Of a DNA stretch of 64,000 nt, positions 5,951 through 50,446 are shown one piece after another. The notes under the pieces are model-generated. The model saw only the letters and a program-made list of their open reading frames with translations. It did no database searches and had not been told where the DNA came from. Position numbers and translations under genes: made by a program. Origin of the DNA: Pteria penguin (taxonomy: Eukaryota; Mollusca; Bivalvia; Pterioida; Pteriidae); contig CM068581.1 of NCBI GenBank assembly GCA_035048485.1, positions 63,961,393 through 64,025,392 of the forward strand, written 5' to 3'. Every line of letters starts with the position of its first letter. The stretch's first letter is position 1.

Positions 5951-6288
5951 GAAAGAAAAAAAAAGAGGAGTTACTGGCTCAGTTATGTGGTACCTGTTGA
6001 CCCTTGTTCTTCACATGGAGGATTATTTATAAATTTTTAAATGTACGTCCTTTGATTGTTCTGCTGTTACGGTGAGTGGGAAGGTGGGCCGTAAACCGGT
6101 TAACCACACACTTTGTTTGGCTTTTGTCAAATTAAATGACCGTCCTAAGTCGGTGTCGTAATTGGACTACAATAAAATATTTTTGTAATGTGTTATATGT
6201 GCTAGTATATTATTTATATTCATGTATTGTATAGCTCCATGGGGACTTCTGTCACATAACTGAGCAAGTAACTCTTCTTTTTTCTTTT
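5951..6288 (+). mobile_element. Solo 3' tail of a Naiad-type Penelope-like element, with inverted tip
   Basis: Positions 5990-6288 match the 3' UTR end of the Penelope-like element at 46400-46704. It starts instead with the reverse complement of that element's last ~38 bp (5951-5990, GGAGTTACTGGCTCAGTTATG), so the piece looks like a 338-bp element with ~30-bp inverted ends. Penelope-like elements are known for inverted and tandem partial insertions. The SECIS hairpin lies outside this piece. It sits 15 bp beyond the end of the inverted-end transposon. Confidence 0.8.
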
Positions 6289-6950
6289 ATATATATGCAT
6301 TTTTCGGTAATAAATGAAATAAATTAGATATTTTGAAACTATTTAAAACGTCTTTTTGATAAAAAAAAAATTATACGGGAAAATAAACCTCAATTTTAAA
6401 CTTTCTTTCTGTGCGAAAATATCCTTCAAATCATATTTTTAAGTTAAGTAAGAATATTTACCGATATAAGAAAGCTTTTAATCCAAACGTTGTCTCATTT
6501 GATGATGCAAATAATTTATTTTACTTGAAATTTATTTAAAAGTAGGAAAATTGGCGATATAGGGAAAATCAAAGCAACTTCTTAGTCACTTGAACAACGA
6601 AAATTAAAACCAACACAAAGTGTCAGTAAAATATAAACCCCACCTACATTTGGGCCTATCCACAAGGGTCAGGTGGACGCCTTGTTTGACAAAAATCTTG
6701 ATTACACATCTTAAGATAGAGATCTAACATCAGATCGGGTATGAAGTGATTAACTCTTATAGCTTCTGAGAATTTTGGTAGGACAAGTTCATAGCAAGAG
6801 AGAAAAAGAGGGGAAAGAATAGGAAGAATAATAAGAAACAGTGCAAAAACGTTAATTAATCAAACCTCGTTTGGGCGACTTAATAATAAAATCGATGCAA
6901 AAAAATATGTTGCCAAACACCGTTTTTGGCGACTTGATAAGACACGGTGC
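6289..6950. other. Non-coding stretch, nothing recognised
   Basis: AT-rich single-copy-looking DNA between the Penelope tail and the PIN-like relic. I see no open frame of note, RNA gene or repeat. Confidence 0.6.
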
Positions 6951-31437: not shown

Positions 31438-31988
31438 TAAAGCTCAGCTTTAAGGTGTACCATATGCACATTTCGACAACTTTTCAGTGATACTCAAGGC
31501 CTAAGTAACTGCACGTAAATCAGTGTCGTATGTAAGAAAAAAGAGGAGTTACTGGCTCAGTTATGTGGCAGAGGTCACCATGGAGCTATACAATACATGA
31601 ATATAAATGATATACTAGAACATATAACACATTACAAAAATATTTTATTGTAGTGCAATTACGATACCGACTTAGGACGGTCATTTAATTTGACAAAAGC
31701 CAAACAAATGGTGTGGTTAACTGGTTTACGGGCCCACCTTCCCACTCACCGTAACAGCAGAACAATCAAAGGACGTACATTTAAAAATTTATAAATAATC
31801 CTCCATGTAAAGAACAAGGGTCAACAGGTATCGCATATTGAGAGGTCATAAAAATATAAACACGTAAGGTATTGTAAAACACATAATGGTATAAAAATGT
31901 ATGTGACATCAACATGATAAACCGTGCTCTGCCAGTCTGAAAGCGAGCTAAGACCCTAGATCTGTAGGAGTCCCGACTAACAGTCAGA

Positions 31989-32054
31989 GGGGACGAGGTT
32001 CAGGACCATGTCTCCTCTGAAAGAGGTTTGGACAAGGCCCGTCATATAGTCCCC
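31989..32054 (-). promoter_or_regulatory. SECIS element (form 2), truncated Naiad copy
   Basis: Exact reverse complement of the 66-nt hairpin at 46181-46246. Helix I GGGGAC/GTCCCC, core ATGAC/TGAA, helix II of ~10 pairs, unpaired AAA, and mini-stem CCTCT/AGAGG. Preserved without change in this truncated copy. Confidence 0.8.
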
Positions 32055-32226
32055 ACCGCCCTGTTAGTCAGCGTGCAACGTTCAAGTAAAAGTCTGCATA
32101 AGGCTGTAGAGGAGCCAAATACAAGACCTATACTCTTTTTGATGATCTCAGTATTATATTGTCTATTTAGAAGACGTTTGACTATTTTATTACATGATAA
32201 AATAACGTCGGAGCCTTTTACTTTCC

Positions 32227-32913
32227 TTAGTTTATATACGAGATCACCGTAAAATTATGATGGGAAATTCCATTGGATACATACTGTTGAAAAGAAATAT
32301 TTCCAAACTTAGATAGAAGTTCTGAATAAGATCTGAAGAATTTGCTGAATGTTTTTCTTAGCTTGTGATATCTGTAACCCTGAGTTAAAAGTTTAGAAGT
32401 AATTTGTAAATTTCGTTTATGAAAGTCCAAAACATCGGTGCAGCCTCTGACAAATCGAACTAATTGAGATATATAGATACCATATGATGGGAGTCGAGGA
32501 ACATCGCCATCCAAGTAAGGGAAATTTACAATAGGAAATCCAAAATGCTCACGTTTATCATAAATATTAGTATATATTAGGTTGTTGATAATTTTGATGT
32601 TTAAATCTAAGAAAGGTGTAGATTTATCTCAAGTATTAGCTTTATTCAATGTGAGCTCTGGTGAATATATTTCTGATATAAACTGTTCGAATTCAGGGTT
32701 GTCGATAACAAAAATGTCATCCAGATATCTGCAAGTATTATTAAATTTGTCAATGAGGTCAAAACGTTTTGATTTTTGAATTGAAACCATAAAATCCCTC
32801 TCATAACAATAAAGAAATAAATCTGCTATTAGAGGCGCGCAGTTAGTACCCATAGGAATCCCAACTATTTGTTGATATATCTTGCCATCAAATTGAACAA
32901 AAATATTATTCAT
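32227..32913 (-). pseudogene. Naiad RT C-terminal half with in-frame UGA (Sec) codon
   Basis: Reads IVGIPMGTNCAPLIADLFL (RT motif B), CRYLDDIFVIDN (YLDD catalytic motif C) and PELTLNKANT. Then a UGA at 32631-32629 is followed in the same frame by DKSTPFLDL and on to RLPSYGIYISQLVRF and SFQQYVSNGIS. A frameshift near 32250 ends it. The UGA is at exactly the same place as in the copy at 45600, where the rest of the frame also continues. No TAA or TAG interrupts the 38 codons after the UGA. Not active, since it is truncated, but informative for recoding. Confidence 0.75.
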
Positions 32914-33026
32914 GAGAAAATCTAGTGCTTTACATAATTCCTTGCAAGTCCAATATTTATATGAAGTATATTGTTTGTTGGAAAAGAATCCGGAATACTT
33001 TTACAGCTTTATATTCGGTATGCTAG

Positions 33027-37999: not shown

Positions 38000-38865
38000 T
38001 GTCATAAAGCTTAATAACAAAGTATAACAGACTACAGATGACTGTCAATTTTTGATTAAATGTAAAGACACAAAGCTGATAGAAATTATAGCTTTTCACA
38101 TTCTTTCTAAACCCAAAAGTCTACAATATGCATCCTGATTTGTTCAAGTTGAATGAGATATATGATAATCTAGTTTTACTAGAGGTAGACTGGTTCATAA
38201 GGGTATATATAATCCTATGATATTTTGATAAAATCATTTCTCATATAATCTGAAAAATGTTATCTCATTTAAAGGCATTTTCATGTAAATGCTCTGTTCT
38301 GTATATTTAACTTGAAAACCTAAATATCACATTCAGAATGTACTCTACTGTCTAAGTAAATAAATTAACCAATTTCTCATTTAAAAGAAAATGGTTTAAA
38401 TTAACTTATCTGCAAATGACTGAAATGCATTCATGGACAAGTTATGATAAATAAGGCAAATCAATACATATGTTGCTAGAAAGCTAGAAATGCATGTATA
38501 ATTATACTTCACAGGTTCTTCTTTAAATATCTTGACATTTCCTATAATTAGGCTTTACATGGGATACAGTATATCTATTTCAAAACTATATCTTTGTTTC
38601 AAATTTAAATATATTTATATATCTTACTCTTAGATTTGGTACATGATGATACTAAATTAATCAAGTTAGATGAGCAACCTAATTGTAATATTGATAAAGA
38701 TAACTAAGAACTTAAACTAAACGTAATTAATATTGATTACAAAGGCCATTTTTGTAAATAGGTTTAGTATCAAAGCCATTAATTTATACAGGCCTAATTG
38801 ATACATGTACTGTACTGTAGTTGTGCCAACAGACTATAGACAGAGAAAATTCAAACTGAACTTCA
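38000..38865. other. Intergenic stretch, nothing recognised
   Basis: AT-rich DNA up to the start of the Penelope-like composite. Confidence 0.55.
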
Positions 38866-39465
38866 AAAGACTATAGGTCTTGTATTTGGCCCCTCTACAG
38901 CCTTATGCAGACTTTTACTTGAACGTTGCACGCTGACTAACAGGGCGGTGGGGACTATATGACGGGCCTTGTCCAAACCTCTTTCAGAGGAGACATGGTC
39001 CTGAACCTCGTCCCCTCTGACTGTTAGTCGGGACTCCTACAGATCTAGGGTCTTAGCTCGTTTTCAAACTGGCAGAGCACGGTTTATCATGTTGATGTCG
39101 CATATATTTTTATACCATTATGTGTTTTACAATACCTTACGTGTTTATATTTTTATGACCTCTCAATATGCGATACCTGTTGACCCTTGTTCTTTACATG
39201 GAGGTAAAATTTTTAAATGTACGTCCTTTGATTGTTCTGCTGTTACGGTGAGTGGGAAGGTGGGCCTGTAAACCAGTTAACCACACCATTTGTTTGGCTT
39301 TTGTCAAATTAAATGACCGTCCTAAGTCGGTATCGTAATTGCACTACAATCAAATATTTTTGTAATGTGTTATATGTTCTAGTATATTATTTATATTCAT
39401 GTATTGTATAGCTTCATGGTGACTTCTGCCACATAACTGAGCCAGTAACTCCTCTTTTTTCTTTC
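38866..39465 (+). mobile_element. Naiad pseudo-LTR (truncated 3' end copy)
   Basis: Matches 46099-46704 (end of RT frame, SECIS hairpin, 3' UTR) in direct orientation, with a small deletion near 39206. It sits immediately upstream of the same element's body, the tandem arrangement that gives Penelope-like elements their pseudo-LTRs. Confidence 0.8.
38950..39015 (+). promoter_or_regulatory. SECIS element (form 2), pseudo-LTR copy
   Basis: Same 66-nt hairpin as at 46181-46246, unchanged: helix I, ATGAC/TGAA core, AAA and mini-stem all intact. Confidence 0.8.
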
Positions 39466-39798
39466 ATATCTACACTTATTCTCAGATGCAGTGTGGAGCC
39501 TGTAAAAAGGTTCCCCGTTTCTGGGTGTTTCAAGTGTTATTATTCACCCAATAGTTACTGACTTGGTTGTGTGGGAGCTTTCCCCTGGGTTTGTACATCC
39601 TTACCCCCCCCCCCCCTTTCTTTAAAATGGCTTAAAATATAATAAAATTAAAATACAAATCTCCTTAAGTTATAATCACACCACTTAGATTGCCCTCTGT
39701 GTCCACTCTTCATATACCTGGTATTTCTTGTAGAAAATTATTCGGCACCACTAAAGTTCATATTTCTCCACACCAGTAGTTTCCCTATTAAACGTTCT

Positions 39799-39837
39799 AT
39801 CAATATCGAAGAAGTACCAAACCGTTAATCATTCTCA
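39799..39837. repeat. 39-bp direct repeat, left (target duplication of inner element)
   Basis: Identical to 43154-43192. It flanks the minus-strand element, and the outer element's reading frame (INIEEVPNR, one stop, SFS) resumes across it. This is what a long target-site duplication made by insertion of the inner element would give. Confidence 0.8.
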
Positions 39838-40085
39838 AAGTCCAAGGACAGATACAAAATCGTGTAAGTTTCAAAAAGAAACTGTTGTGAACCCCGAAAT
39901 ACTGAAAAATTCCGAGGTGAGACCAGCTGCCCGGGGAGAGTAAGCGTCTCCTGTTTGCATGCATCACCCGTCACAGCAGTTCTTAAGAAACATGTCAAAA
40001 TCAAGAGTTTTGGTTTCCTAATTTTACATACGAACGTACAAAACTGGTATACAAAGTCATATTTGGTGTTCACTGAACAGGTCAT

Positions 40086-41636
40086 TTAGTCGCATTCCAG
40101 AATATTATCAATCATTCTAGAAAGAGGCACATCATATTTTCGTACAAGATCCCCATAGCGACCGTAGAACTTCCTCAGTGACGATTTCAGACGTTGTTTA
40201 ACATATCCCTGCAGGAGCAACTTAGTGGCCAGTCGTTTGGCCCTTGGAATAAAACAGTCGTATAGAGAACAGGCTCTTGCGTACCTTATAAATTGAGATA
40301 TAAAAACTCCATTGGCAGGTGAGGACGGGATATTGCTGCAAAGAAACGGAAAGTTAGTTATTTGGAAGTTAAAATCGTCACGTTTGTCATACAGAGAGGT
40401 GTCCAAATGACCATTACTGTCGAAAGTTAAAAATATATCCAGATACGAAGCGGAATTATTGCTCTCGGTTGTCTCTTTTATCTCAAGTTCATGGTGATAG
40501 ATTTCATGTATGTAATCCTTAAAGTTAGGATTATTGATTGACAATACGTCGTCTATATATCTATACGTAAAATTAAACTGAGATGCAAGACTTTTTCTGC
40601 CTGTGGAGAGCATGTTTTGAATAAATTCCGCCTCATACGAATATAAGAAAATGTCAGCAAGAAGAGGGGCGCAGTTAGTTCCCATGGGAATGCCAATGAT
40701 TTGCTGAAAAATGTTCCCTCCAAACACCACGAAAATATTGTCTATTAAAAATTCCAGCATTTTGATGATTTGATCTTCGGTATACTTGTGTTTTGCATCA
40801 GAGTGTTCTTTTACAAAATATGTATCTTCCCGCCCAATAACAAGATATTTATATCTACGATTTCCATTTTTATGGAAAAAAGAATTTCGAATAATTGTAG
40901 CAAGTCTGTTTTTGAGCTTTTGATGCGGAATTGTAGTGTATAGCGTGGAGAAGTCAAAAGATTTGATGCTGAAAATTTTATCAAATTTCGGAGATTTTAG
41001 ATTCTCTAAAAGTTCTTTAGAATTCTTGAGGATCCACATCTGATTTATTCCGCTTCTGGAGTATGCGGTATCACAGTAAATTTGAAGACCATGCTTGATG
41101 TGTGTCAATATCTTCGTTAGCAATATGAATAGAGGTTTGGTGGTACACTTGGAAGAACCAGCAATGAAACGATGTTTGTAAGGGGTTTTGTGCATTTTTG
41201 GAATCCAATAAATATAAGGTAATTCAAGGTCAGAGTTGCTTGTGGTATTTCCAAAAGACTCGAGAACAGATTTGTGGTTTTGAAGTATTTCAGAAATAGA
41301 TAAATTTGTTTGTGTGTATGTTGGATTTCCAGGTGCAGAGTGTAATCCAAGTTCCTCTAACAGACAATTAATGTAAAATCTTTTGCAAACGAAGGTATAA
41401 TTGTTTGCTGCTTTGTCAGCTGGGACAATAATAAATTGTTCGTGGAGTTCAGATAGTTCTCTGGCTACATCAGGGTCATTAAATAAAGACTCGTGTTTGG
41501 TTCTTACTGAATGCCTGAGACGCCCTATTCTTCTTTTGAGTAGTTCTCCGATGGATTTCATCCACTCGGAGAGAGTGTCAGGCTCCACTTCTTCCCTTTT
41601 TGACCATCTCCTGGCATATTCCTCGCATGCATCCAT
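40086..41636 (-). CDS. Naiad reverse transcriptase domain (ORF2 part)
   Basis: 516 codons. The N-terminal part has PADKAANNYTFVCKRFY (residues 72-88, Cys84) and YIYWIPKMHKTPYKHRFIAG (141-160), typical of Penelope RT. Catalytic motifs are A FDFSTLYTTIP (227-237), B IIGIPMGTNCAPLLAD (313-328) and C YIDD (360-363), all intact. The thumb region follows with YDKRDDFNF and FISQFIRYARACS. It would copy element RNA by target-primed reverse transcription in the nucleus. It begins with ATG just after the linker and is in the same frame as the endonuclease part upstream, from which it is separated by 15 codons containing one TGA after the upstream TAA. Whether it is translated separately is unknown. Confidence 0.85.
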   Translation of the reverse strand: MDACEEYARRWSKREEVEPDTLSEWMKSIGELLKRRIGRLRHSVRTKHESLFNDPDVARELSELHEQFIIVPADKAANNYTFVCKRFYINCLLEELGLHSAPGNPTYTQTNLSISEILQNHKSVLESFGNTTSNSDLELPYIYWIPKMHKTPYKHRFIAGSSKCTTKPLFILLTKILTHIKHGLQIYCDTAYSRSGINQMWILKNSKELLENLKSPKFDKIFSIKSFDFSTLYTTIPHQKLKNRLATIIRNSFFHKNGNRRYKYLVIGREDTYFVKEHSDAKHKYTEDQIIKMLEFLIDNIFVVFGGNIFQQIIGIPMGTNCAPLLADIFLYSYEAEFIQNMLSTGRKSLASQFNFTYRYIDDVLSINNPNFKDYIHEIYHHELEIKETTESNNSASYLDIFLTFDSNGHLDTSLYDKRDDFNFQITNFPFLCSNIPSSPANGVFISQFIRYARACSLYDCFIPRAKRLATKLLLQGYVKQRLKSSLRKFYGRYGDLVRKYDVPLSRMIDNILECD

Positions 41637-41684
41637 AATAATTGTGAAATTTTCACGTCATGTGAACGAACGGGACTCTCTTTA
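41637..41684 (-). other. Two stop codons separating endonuclease and RT frames
   Basis: After LLKKGPK comes TAA (41684-41682), seven sense codons, TGA (41660-41658), then RENFTII and the RT ATG. In related proteins this linker reads through with Tyr and Trp at these places (family memory), so both look like nonsense changes of TAC/TAT and TGG. The rest of the ~1000 codons is open. Confidence 0.8.
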
Positions 41685-43076
41685 TTTAGGACCTTTCTTC
41701 AGGAGGTCTCGTAATTTCCTGTTATGTACTAAATTGAGGTCACCAGTTACCACAAGGCCGCATGAAGGGTAAAGATACCTTGATGTGGAGCATGTACAGG
41801 ACGGAACGTCTTTTGTAATATTGTGTGAATCAAGACACTGTAAAACACGTTCATAATTAAATATTTTAGAGGACACAGAAGATGTATAGCTGTAGGAAAT
41901 ACAAGGCGACTCCTGATGTTTGAAATATGGAGGGATTTTATCCTTGACTAACCTATGGTTCAAAATGTTACTCAAATTAAGAGCATCAATCCCCTTATTT
42001 GCAAATTTCATTTTAAGGAAGGGGCGATTGTTATCACCAATAGGTATATCGGTTTTAACTGCCTTGAAAAGTCTGCTAGACGATATGTCCATAATGATGC
42101 CCTGTAGTCGATATTGTGGGGAACTAGAGTCGGTAAAATGTAAGGGTATTGACGATTCGTACAATTCATATAACCTTTTCAAGGGAAGGGAATATAACTT
42201 GGTACGAATATGATGAAGCCCTAATGGTAGATTGACAAATGGTAAAAGAGCGTCAAAGGATATATCATGGATATTGGGCTTATTATACCTACGTTTTCCA
42301 TAACTTCTACGCCTTCTTGATGTATGGCCAAACAATTGAAGAACATTCACCGACTGGTTCCCAGGGCTTGTTAAGTTTCCTACAGTATTAATGTGGTCAT
42401 TGCAACCATAAGTTGCCGCGGTACCTAATTCTCTAATCCAATAATCTTCCCTTTTTCGGCGAAAGGGGGTAATTAGGTTAGGATTATTCGAAGAATGGTA
42501 TATTTTTTCTAAAATGCGGACTTTCAGGGACAAAATAGAATGGTATGGATAATTAAAATGTCTATAAAGTAATTGGTTACCACTGTGGTTTATTTGATAA
42601 CGGTGCCCTGACATCCTGGTACGTAATTGACCCTTAGTCTCTCCGACATAAATCATGCCGCATAAAGAACACTCCATACCATATATCAAGTTGGATGACT
42701 TACAAGTTAGGTTTTCAAAAGTACGAGTAGAAAAAGAACGTTTTGTAAGATTACTCGTAAAAGTGTTGTCAGTTATGAGGATCGGGCATGTTTTACAATT
42801 TCTGTCTCCGCATTTGGATATATTACAATCAGTAGGGACAAAATTGTGATCCTTTAAAATATCTACAACTTCGACTTTACATGCTTTAATAGCTATATAA
42901 TTGTCTGCATTCTTATACCACATCTTGTTGTCATCGCTAACAATGTATGTATTCTTGGTAATGTCCCGTAGGACAACATGTGGGACACCTGTATTACCTG
43001 TCATACCCGTGTCCATAGATATAGCAGTGTGGGTGGGCGACGTGCCAGCCACTATGTTACTTCTTCTTTCAGGCAT
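41682..43076 (-). CDS. Naiad GIY-YIG endonuclease with CxC linker (ORF1 part)
   Basis: 464 codons. A cysteine-rich stretch (DCNISKCGDRNCKTC, residues 83-97) is followed by NLTCKSSNLIYGMECSLC and then the GIY-YIG core (GMIYVGET, 140-147, with R152-R154 and the HFN near 173-175). The DYWIRELGT motif supplies the downstream catalytic region. The C-terminal third ends with PSCTCSTSRYLYPSCG: Cys427 and Cys429 form the CxC motif diagnostic of N-terminal-endonuclease Penelope elements, and VVTGDLNL follows. It would nick the target DNA. C125 and C136 are the two positions replaced by UGA in the outer element. The start ATG at 43076 is the first in frame; the true N-terminus may be 5'-truncated. Confidence 0.85.
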   Translation of the reverse strand: MPERRSNIVAGTSPTHTAISMDTGMTGNTGVPHVVLRDITKNTYIVSDDNKMWYKNADNYIAIKACKVEVVDILKDHNFVPTDCNISKCGDRNCKTCPILITDNTFTSNLTKRSFSTRTFENLTCKSSNLIYGMECSLCGMIYVGETKGQLRTRMSGHRYQINHSGNQLLYRHFNYPYHSILSLKVRILEKIYHSSNNPNLITPFRRKREDYWIRELGTAATYGCNDHINTVGNLTSPGNQSVNVLQLFGHTSRRRRSYGKRRYNKPNIHDISFDALLPFVNLPLGLHHIRTKLYSLPLKRLYELYESSIPLHFTDSSSPQYRLQGIIMDISSSRLFKAVKTDIPIGDNNRPFLKMKFANKGIDALNLSNILNHRLVKDKIPPYFKHQESPCISYSYTSSVSSKIFNYERVLQCLDSHNITKDVPSCTCSTSRYLYPSCGLVVTGDLNLVHNRKLRDLLKKGPK

Positions 43077-43153
43077 TCATTGTGAATTTCTGCCCGACAA
43101 GTATCCTCGGGAACAATTTGTCCACCAGCAGAGATACATGGACAGTGGTTAAA

Positions 43154-43192
43154 ATCAATATCGAAGAAGTACCAAACCGTTAATCATTCTCA
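43154..43192. repeat. 39-bp direct repeat, right (target duplication of inner element)
   Basis: Identical partner of 39799-39837. The outer element's coding region continues from here. Confidence 0.8.
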
Positions 43193-43201
43193 TTTTCTAA
43201 T

Positions 43202-43900
43202 CTATCTCATTTTCAAAAACATTCACAGCTATAAATTCTTACAGAGCTGTAAATTTTATACGCAGAGGGTATTCTAAAATTAATAAGTGCAACGCCAAGA
43301 AATATCTTACTTGCCATCATTTAAGCTGCAAGTCCAATATTGAATCTTCGGTTAATGGAAATACATTTAACACCAAATTAGACAAAGACATAGATTGAAA
43401 TACTGCCAATGTTATATATGTCATCACTTGAGAAGCTAGAGGGTGTGGGGCTCAATATGTCGGGGAAACTTCTCAAACTTTGAAACAACGTTTTCGGAAT
43501 CATTCCTATAAAATTCGTAATAATTCACGACGTAAATACCAGAATTTTCTTTATAACCACTTTAATAAATACTAACATAATATTAACAATGTGAAAATTA
43601 CTCCAGTAGAAAATATCTTTACATTACCAGGTGATACGAAATCAGATGTTAAAAAACGACTTTTGGAAACCGAGCTCTACTAGATTAAACAACTACAAAC
43701 CCCATACCCTCTTGGTCTCAACGACCAAATATATCGACAAGGTAATATTTCTTCTCGTCAGAATAAGATCAATATTTTTACATTAAGACACAAAACTATC
43801 AGAAAACGTAGGTTACATGGCGTCGCCGTAATCGTAACATCAGAAAACGTAATCGTTTTAATAGGTCATTAAACGATCTTCTATTTATCGCAAAAAAAAA
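43202..43900 (+). pseudogene. Naiad GIY-YIG endonuclease region with two in-frame UGA codons
   Basis: The frame from about 43202 reads FTAINSYRAVNFIRRGYSK, then KCNAKKYLTCHHLSCKSN. A UGA (43396-43398), ten codons NTANVIYVIT, and a second UGA (43429-43431) precede the core CGAQYVGET. In the inner element both UGA positions are Cys (C125 and C136) with the same ten-residue spacing, so they read as selenocysteine. Real decay is also present: TAA at 43573-43575, TAG at 43681-43683 (in LY-IKQL) and a frameshift around 43815. The GIY-YIG tyrosine is changed: GIY appears as GAQY. Confidence 0.75.
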
Positions 43901-44019
43901 ATAATGGCCGTCATGAACTTTTGCATGCACTATCGTCTATTCCGGTAAATAAATTGAAACCTATCCTGGGCGAAGCTGATCTTCGAAGTTTACGCAATTC
44001 TGATTGATATAAACTCAAT

Positions 44020-44436
44020 TTGATTATTTTATTTTCATATAATAAACTTTTTCCTCGTATTCCGTCTCTTCCACCCAAGCAGCCATTTCTCAAAATTAAA
44101 TTTATTAATAAAGGCTTCGATCTACTTAACATTTCTAATATTTTCCGTGATCATAGAGTCACATCTAAAATCCCCCAATATTTTGAGAATTTAGAACCTC
44201 CACTTATTTGTTACCAGTACAAAAAGCCTATAAGAAATCATATTTTAAATTATAATAAAGTTACATCTAACCCTGATGTTTCAGACTCTATTCCTTCGTC
44301 GTGTTCTTGTGAAAATTCTAAATATGTTTATAAACCGGCAGGTCATGTTATTACTGGTGACCTAAACTTATTTCGGACAAGACATTGCGCACCCTTTTTG
44401 GAAAAGGACCTAGATATAGGTTACCGTCCAGGATAG
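44020..44436 (+). pseudogene. Naiad linker region with CxC motif
   Basis: PFLKIKFINKGFDLLNISNI is close to PFLKMKFANKGIDALNLSNI of the inner element. Further on IPSSCSCENSKYVYKPAGHV gives the CxC motif, then VITGDLNL. A one-base shift near 44371-44378 moves the continuation (TLRTLFGKGPRYRLPSR) into the next frame, where the RT is encoded. Confidence 0.75.
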
Positions 44437-46193
44437 ATTTCAATAAATGCCGTGACGTTATAGAAGATGCTTTAACTACATCTTGTAAACGTTGGTGTAA
44501 AAAAGAACAGGTAAAGGTTAATGCTCTAAATGATTGGAAATACGAGATTTTAAGAATTGTCGATATCCGTATTAAGAACTTTACGGAAAATCCGCATTTA
44601 TTTCAACAGCCTAATACATTGACGGCAAATTCTATTAAAAAGAAGATAGCTGACTTACATGCTAAATATGTCTTTGTTCCTGCTGATAAAGCAGGTAACA
44701 GCATAACAGTCGTTTGAAAACTATATTATATTGAAGTACTTAAAAACGAATTAAACTCCACTCGTACATATGTGGAAAGCCCTACCTCAAAAGAAAGCAC
44801 CTTGCACGATCACCTCATGAGCATGTCCGACTTCAAAATTACAACTGATAAATCTGATCTACCAACCATATATTGGCTCCCAAAACTACATAAAAGTCCA
44901 TATAAATCACGTTTCATATCTAATTCTAGCCACTACTCTACTACGGTACTATCGAAGCATATTACGTCTGCTCTAACTGCTATAAAAGATCATATTATCA
45001 AATATTGTGATGTCGCATTTCATAATAGCAACATCAATTACTTTTGGTCGATTAATAATTCTCATGAAGTTATAGACAAACTTCTTTCGCTAAATTTCAA
45101 AGCGACTCAAATTTGTACATTTGATTTTTCTACACTTTATACATCTCTGCCTCATGATTTGATTAAAAGCAAGTTGCTGTCTCTTATACAATGGTGTTTT
45201 CACAGAGAATCTAAAACGTGCATATGTACTTCCAATAACTCCGGATTCTTTTCCAACAAACAATATACTTCATATAAATACTGGAATTGCAAGGAATTAT
45301 GTAAAGCACTAGACTTTCTCATGAATAATATTTTTGTGCAATTTGATGGCAAGATATATCAACAAATAGTTGGGATTCCTATGGGTACTAACTGCGCGCC
45401 TCTGATAGCAGATTTAATTCTTTATTATGAGAGGGATTTTATGGTTTCTATTCACAAATCAAAACGTTTTGACCTCATTGACAAATTTAATAATACTTGC
45501 AGATATCTGGATGACATTTTGGTTATCGACAACCCTGAATTCGAACAATTTATATCAGAAATATATCCACCAGAGCTCACATTGAATAAAGCTAATACTT
45601 GAGATAAATCTACACCTTTCTTAGATTTAAACATCAAAATTATCAACCACCTAATATATACTAATATTTATGATAAACGTGAGGATTTTGGATTTCCTAT
45701 TGTAAATTTCCCTTACTTGGATGGGAATGTCCCTCGACTCCCATCATATGGTATCTATATATCTCAATTAGTTCGATTTGTCAGAGGCTGCACCGATGTT
45801 TTGGACTTTCATAAACGAAATTTACAAATTACTACTAAACTTTTAACTCAGGGTTACAGATATCACAAGCTAAGAAAAACATTCGGCAAATTTTTCAGAT
45901 CTTATTCAGAACTTCTATCTAAATTTGGAAATATTTCTTTTCAACAGTATGTATCCAATGGTATTTCCCATCCTAAATTTTACGGTGATCTCGTATATAA
46001 ACTAAAGAAAGTAAAAGGCTCCGATAACGTTATTTTATCATGTAATAAAATAGTCAAACGTCTTCTAAATAGACAATATGATATTCAGATCATCAAAAAG
46101 ACTATAGGTCTTGTATTTGGCCCCTCTACAGCCTTATGCAGACTTTTACTTGAACGTTGCACGCTGACTAACAGGGCGGTGGGGACTATATGA
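44376..46193 (+). pseudogene. Naiad reverse transcriptase region with two in-frame UGA codons
   Basis: One frame of ~600 codons with no TAA or TAG. It contains KKIADLHAKYVFVPADKAGN, then UGA at 44715-44717 followed by KLYYIEVLKNEL. The inner element has Cys84 at this place (FVCKRFY). Next come IYWLPKLHKSPYKSRFI, FDFSTLYTSLP (motif A), QQIVGIPMGTNCAPLIAD (motif B) and CRYLDDILVIDN (YLDD). A second UGA at 45600-45602 after NKANT is followed by DKSTPFLDL; the inner element has Ser there, but the UGA is kept in the independent copy at 32629. The frame ends with UGA at 46191-46193. If UGA is read as selenocysteine this half is intact. Upstream frameshifts make the whole copy inactive. Confidence 0.8.
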
Positions 46194-46246
46194 CGGGCCT
46201 TGTCCAAACCTCTTTCAGAGGAGACATGGTCCTGAACCTCGTCCCC
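46181..46246 (+). promoter_or_regulatory. SECIS element (form 2) overlapping the UGA stop
   Basis: Helix I is GGGGAC (46181-46186) with GTCCCC (46241-46246). The internal loop is TAT/CCTC, and the kink-turn core ATGAC (46190-46194) faces TGAA (46233-46236). Helix II is GGGCC-T-TGTC with GACA-T-GGTCC (one G.T pair, one T.T mismatch). Unpaired AAA at 46206-46208 precedes mini-stem CCTCT-TTC-AGAGG. This order, with ~11 nt between core and AA, is the eukaryotic form-2 SECIS that recruits SBP2 for UGA-to-Sec recoding. The frame's terminal UGA (46191-46193) is the UGA of the ATGA core. Confidence 0.85.
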
Positions 46247-46704
46247 TCTGACTGTTAGTCGGGACTCCTACAGATCTAGGGTCTTAGCTCGCTTTCAGAC
46301 TGGCAGAGCACGGTTTATCATGTTGATGTCGCATATATTTTTATACCATTATGTGTTTTACAATACCTTACGTGTTTACAATTTTTTTGACCTCTCAATA
46401 TGCGATGCCTGTTGACCCTTGTTCTTTACATGGAGGATTATTTATAAATCTTTAAATGTACGTCCTTTGATTGTTCTGCTGTTACGGTGAGTGGGAAGGT
46501 GGACCCGTAAACCGGTTAACCACATTATTTGTTTGGCTTTTGTCAAATTAAATGACCGTCCTAAGTCGATATCGTAATTGCACTACAATCAAATATTTTT
46601 GGAATGTGTTATATGTTCTAGTATATTTTTTATATTCATGTATTGTATAGCTTCATGGTGACTTCTGCCACATAACTGAGCCCGTAACTCCTCTTTTTTC
46701 TTTC
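46247..46704 (+). other. Naiad 3' UTR
   Basis: Shared with 38866-39465, 5990-6288 and the minus-strand 31535-31988. Ends in TAACTCCTCTTTTTTCTTTC. Confidence 0.85.
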
Positions 46705-46939
46705 AAAGTATGAAAAAACAAAATTTACCCATACATATTTCTACAAAAGTCAGAATAATGTGTATATTATTGTGTCAGTAATGTTTAATAGATCTACTGT
46801 TTAATAAAAATGTACTCCTAGTTCAACTGGCATCTCAGTATTTGCATGTTCATTTCGACTGATTTTTATTTCGATCCAAATCAAGTCAAGTCAATACCTG
46901 GTAGAAAGTACTTACTCAGTATACAGTGTATATTAAAAG

Positions 46940-47085
46940 CACAGGGCTTTCGGCCCGTTACCCCCCCCCCCCCCCCCCTCAATTATACCAATATATATTG
47001 GTATAATTGTTGCCCCCTTCAATTATACCAGTATATATTGGTATAATTGAGGGGGGGGGGGGGGCAACGAGCCAAAAGCCCTGTG
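46940..47085. mobile_element. hAT-type MITE with 8-bp target duplication
   Basis: Terminal repeats CACAGGGCTTTCGGC and GCCAAAAGCCCTGTG, flanked by identical ATTAAAAG (46932-46939 and 47086-47093), the 8-bp duplication expected of hAT elements. The interior is nearly symmetric: C-run, palindrome around CCAATATATATTGG, GTTGCCCCCTTC, a second palindrome around CCAGTATATATTGG, G-run. No coding capacity. Confidence 0.8.
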
Positions 47086-47094
47086 ATTAAAAGT

Positions 47095-50440: not shown

Positions 50441-50446
50441 CACAAC

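Follow-up and report, generated by a model that had tools for sequence, protein, structure and literature searches.

A Naiad-type Penelope-like element of Pteria penguin with five in-frame UGA codons, very probably read as selenocysteine under the direction of a predicted SECIS hairpin

Selenoproteins are few and are usually host enzymes. Selenoprotein P-like host proteins carry several UGA codons served by SECIS signals on the 3′ side, and in the GPx of poxviruses the SECIS lies within the coding region. Among retroelements, Naiads of clams and spiders are reported to contain several selenocysteines, in a study by Craig and co-workers that appeared in Mol Biol Evol in 2021; among the papers covered by our literature search, none joined Naiad with selenocysteine, or Penelope-like elements with selenocysteine or selenoprotein. 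The element described here, which we call the Sec-Naiad, lies in a window of 64,000 nucleotides of Pteria penguin DNA, the whole stretch that was analysed. It shares with the clam and spider Naiads, as reported, an N-terminal endonuclease, a CxC linker, a C-terminal reverse transcriptase and multiple in-frame UGAs, and on this comparison it is a further member of the already reported selenocysteine-coding Naiads. Like selenoprotein P, it combines multiple UGAs with a SECIS on the 3′ side, but selenoprotein P is a host protein, whereas the Sec-Naiad is a mobile element with one SECIS at the end of its frame and a further copy in an upstream tandem repeat. In poxvirus GPx the SECIS likewise overlaps translated sequence; in the Sec-Naiad just the last codons and the stop lie within it. 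Perhaps new, though we claim no priority, are two predicted selenocysteine columns (325 and 858) without a general Cys ancestor and a stop codon in the SECIS core. The family has a 1,054-codon Naiad frame whose five in-frame UGAs are very likely decoded as selenocysteine under the direction of the predicted SECIS.

The copy in the window is a broken Naiad-type Penelope-like element from a recently multiplied family in which open copies exist. It runs from 38865 to 46703 on the plus strand and is split by a second, Cys-type Naiad. Its upstream part (38865..39626) consists of a tandem 3′ end resembling a pseudo-LTR (38865-39464) and a 5′ leader, as delimited by blastn of a genomic copy (L013) that served only as a coordinate reference: positions 1894-2833 of L013 align to 38865-39801 of the window, and its 3′ end aligns to 38865-39464. 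By alignment to other copies, the frame begins at the ATG at 39627 and continues to about codon 59 (39627..39801), where it is interrupted; the rest, columns 58-1054, occupies 43201..46190 and encodes the endonuclease, a linker with the CxC motif and the reverse transcriptase. The 3′ untranslated part and the element end follow at 46194..46703, and most copies cease matching at about 46701-46709. The original prediction placed the element at 43202..46246, an interval that does carry the UGAs it described, but the frame starts at 39627 and the element reaches 46703. In the window copy the frame is interrupted by TAA at codons 3 and 182 and by TAG at codon 218, and from 43201 onward it carries three frame-changing indels; the copy is therefore dead. 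The nested Cys-type Naiad lies on the minus strand (~39802..43200) with TCTATC on both flanks; a direct repeat of 39 bp near its ends (39799-39837 and 43154-43192) exceeds this 6-bp flanking repeat in length. Immediately 3′ of the Sec-Naiad stands a long inverted repeat (46943-47087) that many miRNA models matched below their cut-offs and that is perhaps a MITE-like hairpin; a stretch near 50444 resembles it.

Assignment to the Naiads draws on homologs and on motifs. No Pfam model was matched by the Sec-Naiad query itself or its pieces, and the query aligns over both its endonuclease and reverse transcriptase parts to three full-length proteins (P0028, P0048 and P0050) that contain a GIY-YIG domain (PF01541) at about 107-222 and RVT_1 at about 625-857. 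The linker CxC motif is present as SSCSC (columns 424 and 426), where, among the commonest letters listed for relatives, Cys numbers 147 (with 23 W) at 424 and 171 at 426. A YLDD version of the YxDD motif occurs in the frame and in the alignment of the C-terminal reverse transcriptase, for which homologs match PF00078, and the pseudo-LTR arrangement is seen both in the window and in L013. No hammerhead ribozyme reached the gathering score in the 64-kb window, and Naiads are not known to carry one. The name Naiad follows from domain order, and should be read as a probable assignment. A PDB sequence search returned just four matches (E 0.08-0.09) to ubiquitin thioesterase, which we take as chance.

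The copies were tallied over 40 rows, comprising the window and 39 copies fetched from the 838-Mb assembly (49 contigs), with each column scored only where covered. From 2,627 candidates, the 39 that match the window copy best were taken; they form a non-random sample biased to its own young subfamily, and they are about 97-99.8% identical to the reference copy. The four in-frame UGAs that had been predicted at 43396, 43429, 44715 and 45600 are all real and lie at exactly those positions; a fifth internal UGA at 44005 had been missed, and a terminal UGA lies at 46191. In the endonuclease, the UGAs at column 123 (43396..43398) and at column 134 (43429..43431), the latter within the endonuclease Cys/His set, are TGA in 18 of 18 and 19 of 19 covering copies. 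The linker UGA at column 325 (44005..44007) is TGA in 35/35, that at the start of the reverse transcriptase part (column 562, 44715..44717) in 39/40 with a single TAA, and both the second reverse transcriptase UGA (column 858, 45600..45602) and the terminal one (column 1055, 46191..46193) in 40/40. A consensus of TGC, TGT or TGG at these columns had been proposed as the outcome that would speak against recoding; apart from that one TAA, every covering row has TGA. Across the sampled copies, the codon fixed at these columns is UGA and neither of the other two stops. Within 44376-46193 the reverse transcriptase frame contains, as had been described, UGAs at 44715 and 45600 and neither TAA nor TAG; its final codon is also UGA.

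Sporadic stops over a 1,211-codon stretch of the 40 rows comprise 15 TAA, 7 TGA and 3 TAG, and beyond the fixed UGA columns no column of the frame has a stop in at least three copies. By simple arithmetic, five TGAs in a row would be drawn from this spectrum (7/25 TGA) with a chance of about 0.002. Outside the frame, TGA also fills a column upstream of the ATG (13/13) and another in the 3′ part (39/40). Seventeen rows have no other stop or frameshift over their covered stretch, and seven of these span all 1,054 codons.

Selection on the frame was assessed from variants in 39 rows, leaving out L038, a likely duplicate of L037, and without counting variants seen exactly twice. Variants common to at least three copies are distributed 11/6/31 over codon positions 1/2/3 with an N:S of 21:27, against 121/128/131 and 281:99 for singletons (Fisher P = 3.9e-5), which presumably arose mostly after insertion. 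The third-position excess is present in all three segments between columns 134 and 858; after column 858 the shared variants number 5/0/5 by codon position, and just two lie upstream of column 123. A comparison with related elements from the fetched loci, over 11 alignments at 67-80% nucleotide identity that exclude rows above 92% and all lie downstream of column 325, gives 299/251/579 differences by codon position. These patterns indicate coding selection before and after columns 325 and 562, so that each of these two conserved in-frame UGAs is flanked by apparently selected coding sequence.

Related proteins and elements show what stands at the UGA columns when UGA does not. The Cys-type Naiads, including the minus-strand copy in the window, P0028, P0050 and others, have the same domain order but carry Cys instead of UGA at columns 123, 134 and 562, and in them the stretch from the endonuclease Cys of column 134 to the following Cys is two residues shorter. 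The nested copy, 37% identical to the Sec-Naiad in amino acids, has Cys at 123, 134, 424 and 562 and Ser at 325 and 858. The earlier match of the first three reported UGAs to Cys residues of this minus-strand Naiad, with ten residues between the first two, is thus reproduced; Ser stands at the columns of 44005 and 45600. Three protein searches, for each of which 120 relatives were listed out of 390, 127 and 4,791 found, extend the comparison. In the first set (120 listed of 390), column 123 is Cys in 37/38 relatives, column 134 in 39/40 and column 562 in 106/117, and the other residues at these columns are Trp except for one Leu at 562. In the same set, Cys is rare at column 325 (4 of those counted), and most relatives have Ser or Thr at column 858. 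The link of the UGAs to Cys sites therefore holds for 43396, 43429 and 44715, but 45600 and 44005 are not Cys in most relatives.

The Trp residues and the ends of the related proteins point to UGA beyond this family. With residues 326-561 as query, 40 of the 120 listed relatives end exactly at 561, the next commonest end being shared by two; these 40 are 43-74% identical. UGA is the codon that table 11 treats as a stop and table 4 as W, and Trp at these columns is best read, as far as protein records go, as a TGA that a gene caller using code 4 has translated. Since W would then occur only where UGA is read as Trp, none is expected in relatives that end at 561. Among those 40, 29 cover column 424 (28 Cys, one Ser) and 10 cover column 325 (all Leu), with Trp in none, and none of the listed proteins that carry W at 325, 424 or 562 stops at 561. 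Statistically, the exclusion of Trp at 424 is of modest strength (Fisher P = 0.03, the comparison group being approximate). One relative (P0016, 57% identical) has W at 123, 134, 325, 424 and 562 together. At column 424, in the CxC motif, W is found in 23 of 175 proteins, and the window family has Cys there. Of 120 listed relatives, four terminate at 857 (two of them about 75% and two about 51-53% identical) and one has W at 858, so selenocysteine at this column may be shared with near kin. DNA of related elements in the loci shows TGA at 562 together with TGT at 858 in L045; column 858 is instead Pro in L020 and Ile in L026, and column 562 is TGT in L010, an element of the Cys type. Together these observations support the view that column 562, and the others to a lesser degree, behaves like UGA also in distant relatives. 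Column 896 had been considered as an extra selenocysteine site; W stands there also in proteins ending at 1054, and it is an ordinary Trp.

A SECIS-type hairpin had been predicted to follow the frame, and an independent model recovers it: Rfam SECIS_1 matches 46182..46245 on the plus strand at 36.6 bits (gathering score 35). The fold has z = -3.44, with an energy better than all 200 shuffles. A second SECIS with identical letters and the same score lies in the upstream tandem 3′ end (38951..39014, plus strand). In the 64-kb window no other Rfam family reaches its gathering score, and the three SECIS_1 matches all fall in 3′ ends of Sec-Naiads. Two further fragments of the family occur in the window, at 31518-32994 on the minus strand, with its own SECIS at 31990-32053, and at 5984-6295. 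Among the 39 fetched loci, the main copy matches SECIS_1 at gathering score in 36 (L012, L029 and L034 miss it), and a related element in L022 scores 40.1 bits. From its position, the SECIS presumably belongs to the same transcript as the UGA frame.

The terminal UGA at column 1055 falls in the 5′ core of this SECIS, and 16 of 120 listed relatives (third set, of 4,791) end at column 1054. W stands at column 1055 in five relatives (P0008, P0009, P0014, P0015 and P0263). A group of about 50% identity ends four residues beyond 1054, and this placing of the stop is not universal. Coding past 46191 was considered and set aside: P0008, P0009, P0014 and P0015, which are about 61-72% identical and read on, are by eye little alike after the first few residues. 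We infer that the SECIS motif supplies the terminal UGA, and that a ribosome arriving there would have opened the hairpin and hence terminate.

The host appears equipped for selenocysteine insertion. For tRNA-Sec, two genes with a UCA anticodon were identified, at 77.8 and 77.3 bits against a cut-off of 47; three more matches lie right at the cut-off (47.2), and 5 of 14 prokaryote controls also passed this cut-off. SepSecS is represented by seven matches on one contig, two of which carry TAA in the scored stretch. With fixed UGAs and the SECIS, these genes support the original prediction that the family recodes UGA through the host selenocysteine machinery. A possible second selenocysteine family (L048, L052; G000:C8:34507300-34509641) was set aside: it consists of young Cys-type Naiads, 70% identical to the Cys-type Naiad of the window, with one TGA in 14 of 15 listed copies, the fifteenth match ending before it. 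The single copy retrieved has the TGA close to its C-terminus, at the end of a relative (P0063). Beyond it the frame stays open for 24 codons, and the 779 bases retrieved, with about 750 beyond the TGA, contain no match to any Rfam family, SECIS among them, at E <= 1. The position of the TGA at the end of P0063 and the lack of a downstream SECIS make it, on this one copy, likely a terminal stop, although its alignment with a Cys that stands two codons short of the end of the window Cys-type Naiad points the other way; on the same basis UGA is likely still a stop codon in this genome. Elsewhere on that contig (G000:C8:30930443-30944577), three Cys-type Naiad matches about 6.3 kb apart share an identical stop pattern, perhaps through tandem duplication.

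Other accounts of the fixed UGAs have to be set against selenocysteine decoding. A non-coding or defective lineage could have been moved in trans, with its stops fixed by descent from one founder; among copies about 97-99.8% identical to the reference, shared descent could indeed fix codons, and fixation within the family weighs little on its own. We judge this account highly improbable, given that all five fixed in-frame stops are TGA whereas sporadic stops are mostly TAA, that coding selection is visible, that relatives down to 43% identity retain a stop exactly at column 562, and that a SECIS stands at the end of the frame. Equally remote is the idea that the UGAs are read as another amino acid, by near-cognate read-through or by reassignment of UGA to Trp. 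The inserted residue is itself a predicted one, which leaves room for that idea, but three of the five columns are Cys in relatives (37/38, 39/40 and 106/117), Cys being the usual partner of selenocysteine; SECIS and tRNA-Sec(UCA) are present; and the Cys-type Naiad copy discussed above suggests that UGA is likely still a stop in this genome.

Insertion of selenocysteine might instead be partial, with termination at the UGAs itself useful in yielding short endonuclease products and little full-length protein. Selenocysteine decoding is inefficient, and with five UGAs to pass in turn only processive decoding would yield more than a little full-length product; that the reverse transcriptase is conserved, on the other hand, suggests that the full-length product matters. 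We regard such partial insertion as possible though doubtful, and it is compatible with selenocysteine decoding at all five UGAs, so the likelihoods assigned to the two readings are not exclusive.

For the preferred reading, decoding of the five UGAs as selenocysteine, the mechanism would be as follows, with decoding, termination and mobility all inferred from sequence. A host SECIS-binding protein and a selenocysteine-specific elongation factor, both assumed to be present, would bring Sec-tRNA to the UGAs, and selenocysteine would be inserted at columns 123 and 134 of the endonuclease, 325 of the linker, and 562 and 858 of the reverse transcriptase. At the sixth UGA, in the SECIS core, the arriving ribosome would unfold the hairpin and terminate. 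Copying and insertion of the element would then be the work of the complete protein, in which a GIY-YIG endonuclease is fused to a reverse transcriptase. If this is correct, one codon would have two readings on one mRNA, selenocysteine with the hairpin folded and stop once the ribosome enters it, and a stop inside the SECIS would be a simple rule for telling the two apart. A broader proposal, for which we see an even chance, is that the lineage gains and loses selenocysteine column by column (123, 134, 325, 424, 562 and 858), two of these columns being mostly non-Cys in relatives, with the SECIS core supplying the stop. Because relatives differ in their UGA columns, they offer a natural experiment on the gain and loss of selenocysteine, and columns 325 and 858 provide a case for whether selenocysteine can arise where no Cys stood. 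A selenocysteine-dependent family with 2,627 candidate matches, 40 of them scored, would also be a heavy and selfish user of the host selenium pathway.

Beyond the host genome, the search of contigs yielded one Cys-type Naiad fragment, in a mussel-symbiont assembly (L051), and no relatives among the viral contigs searched for related loci. Naiad sequences in bacterial assemblies of bivalve symbionts (L051 and P0368) are likely host DNA binned with the symbiont. Two Naiad proteins, P0023 and P0032, have a ubiquitin carboxyl-terminal hydrolase domain (PF00443) behind the reverse transcriptase, placed by hmmscan in P0032 and listed only for P0023.
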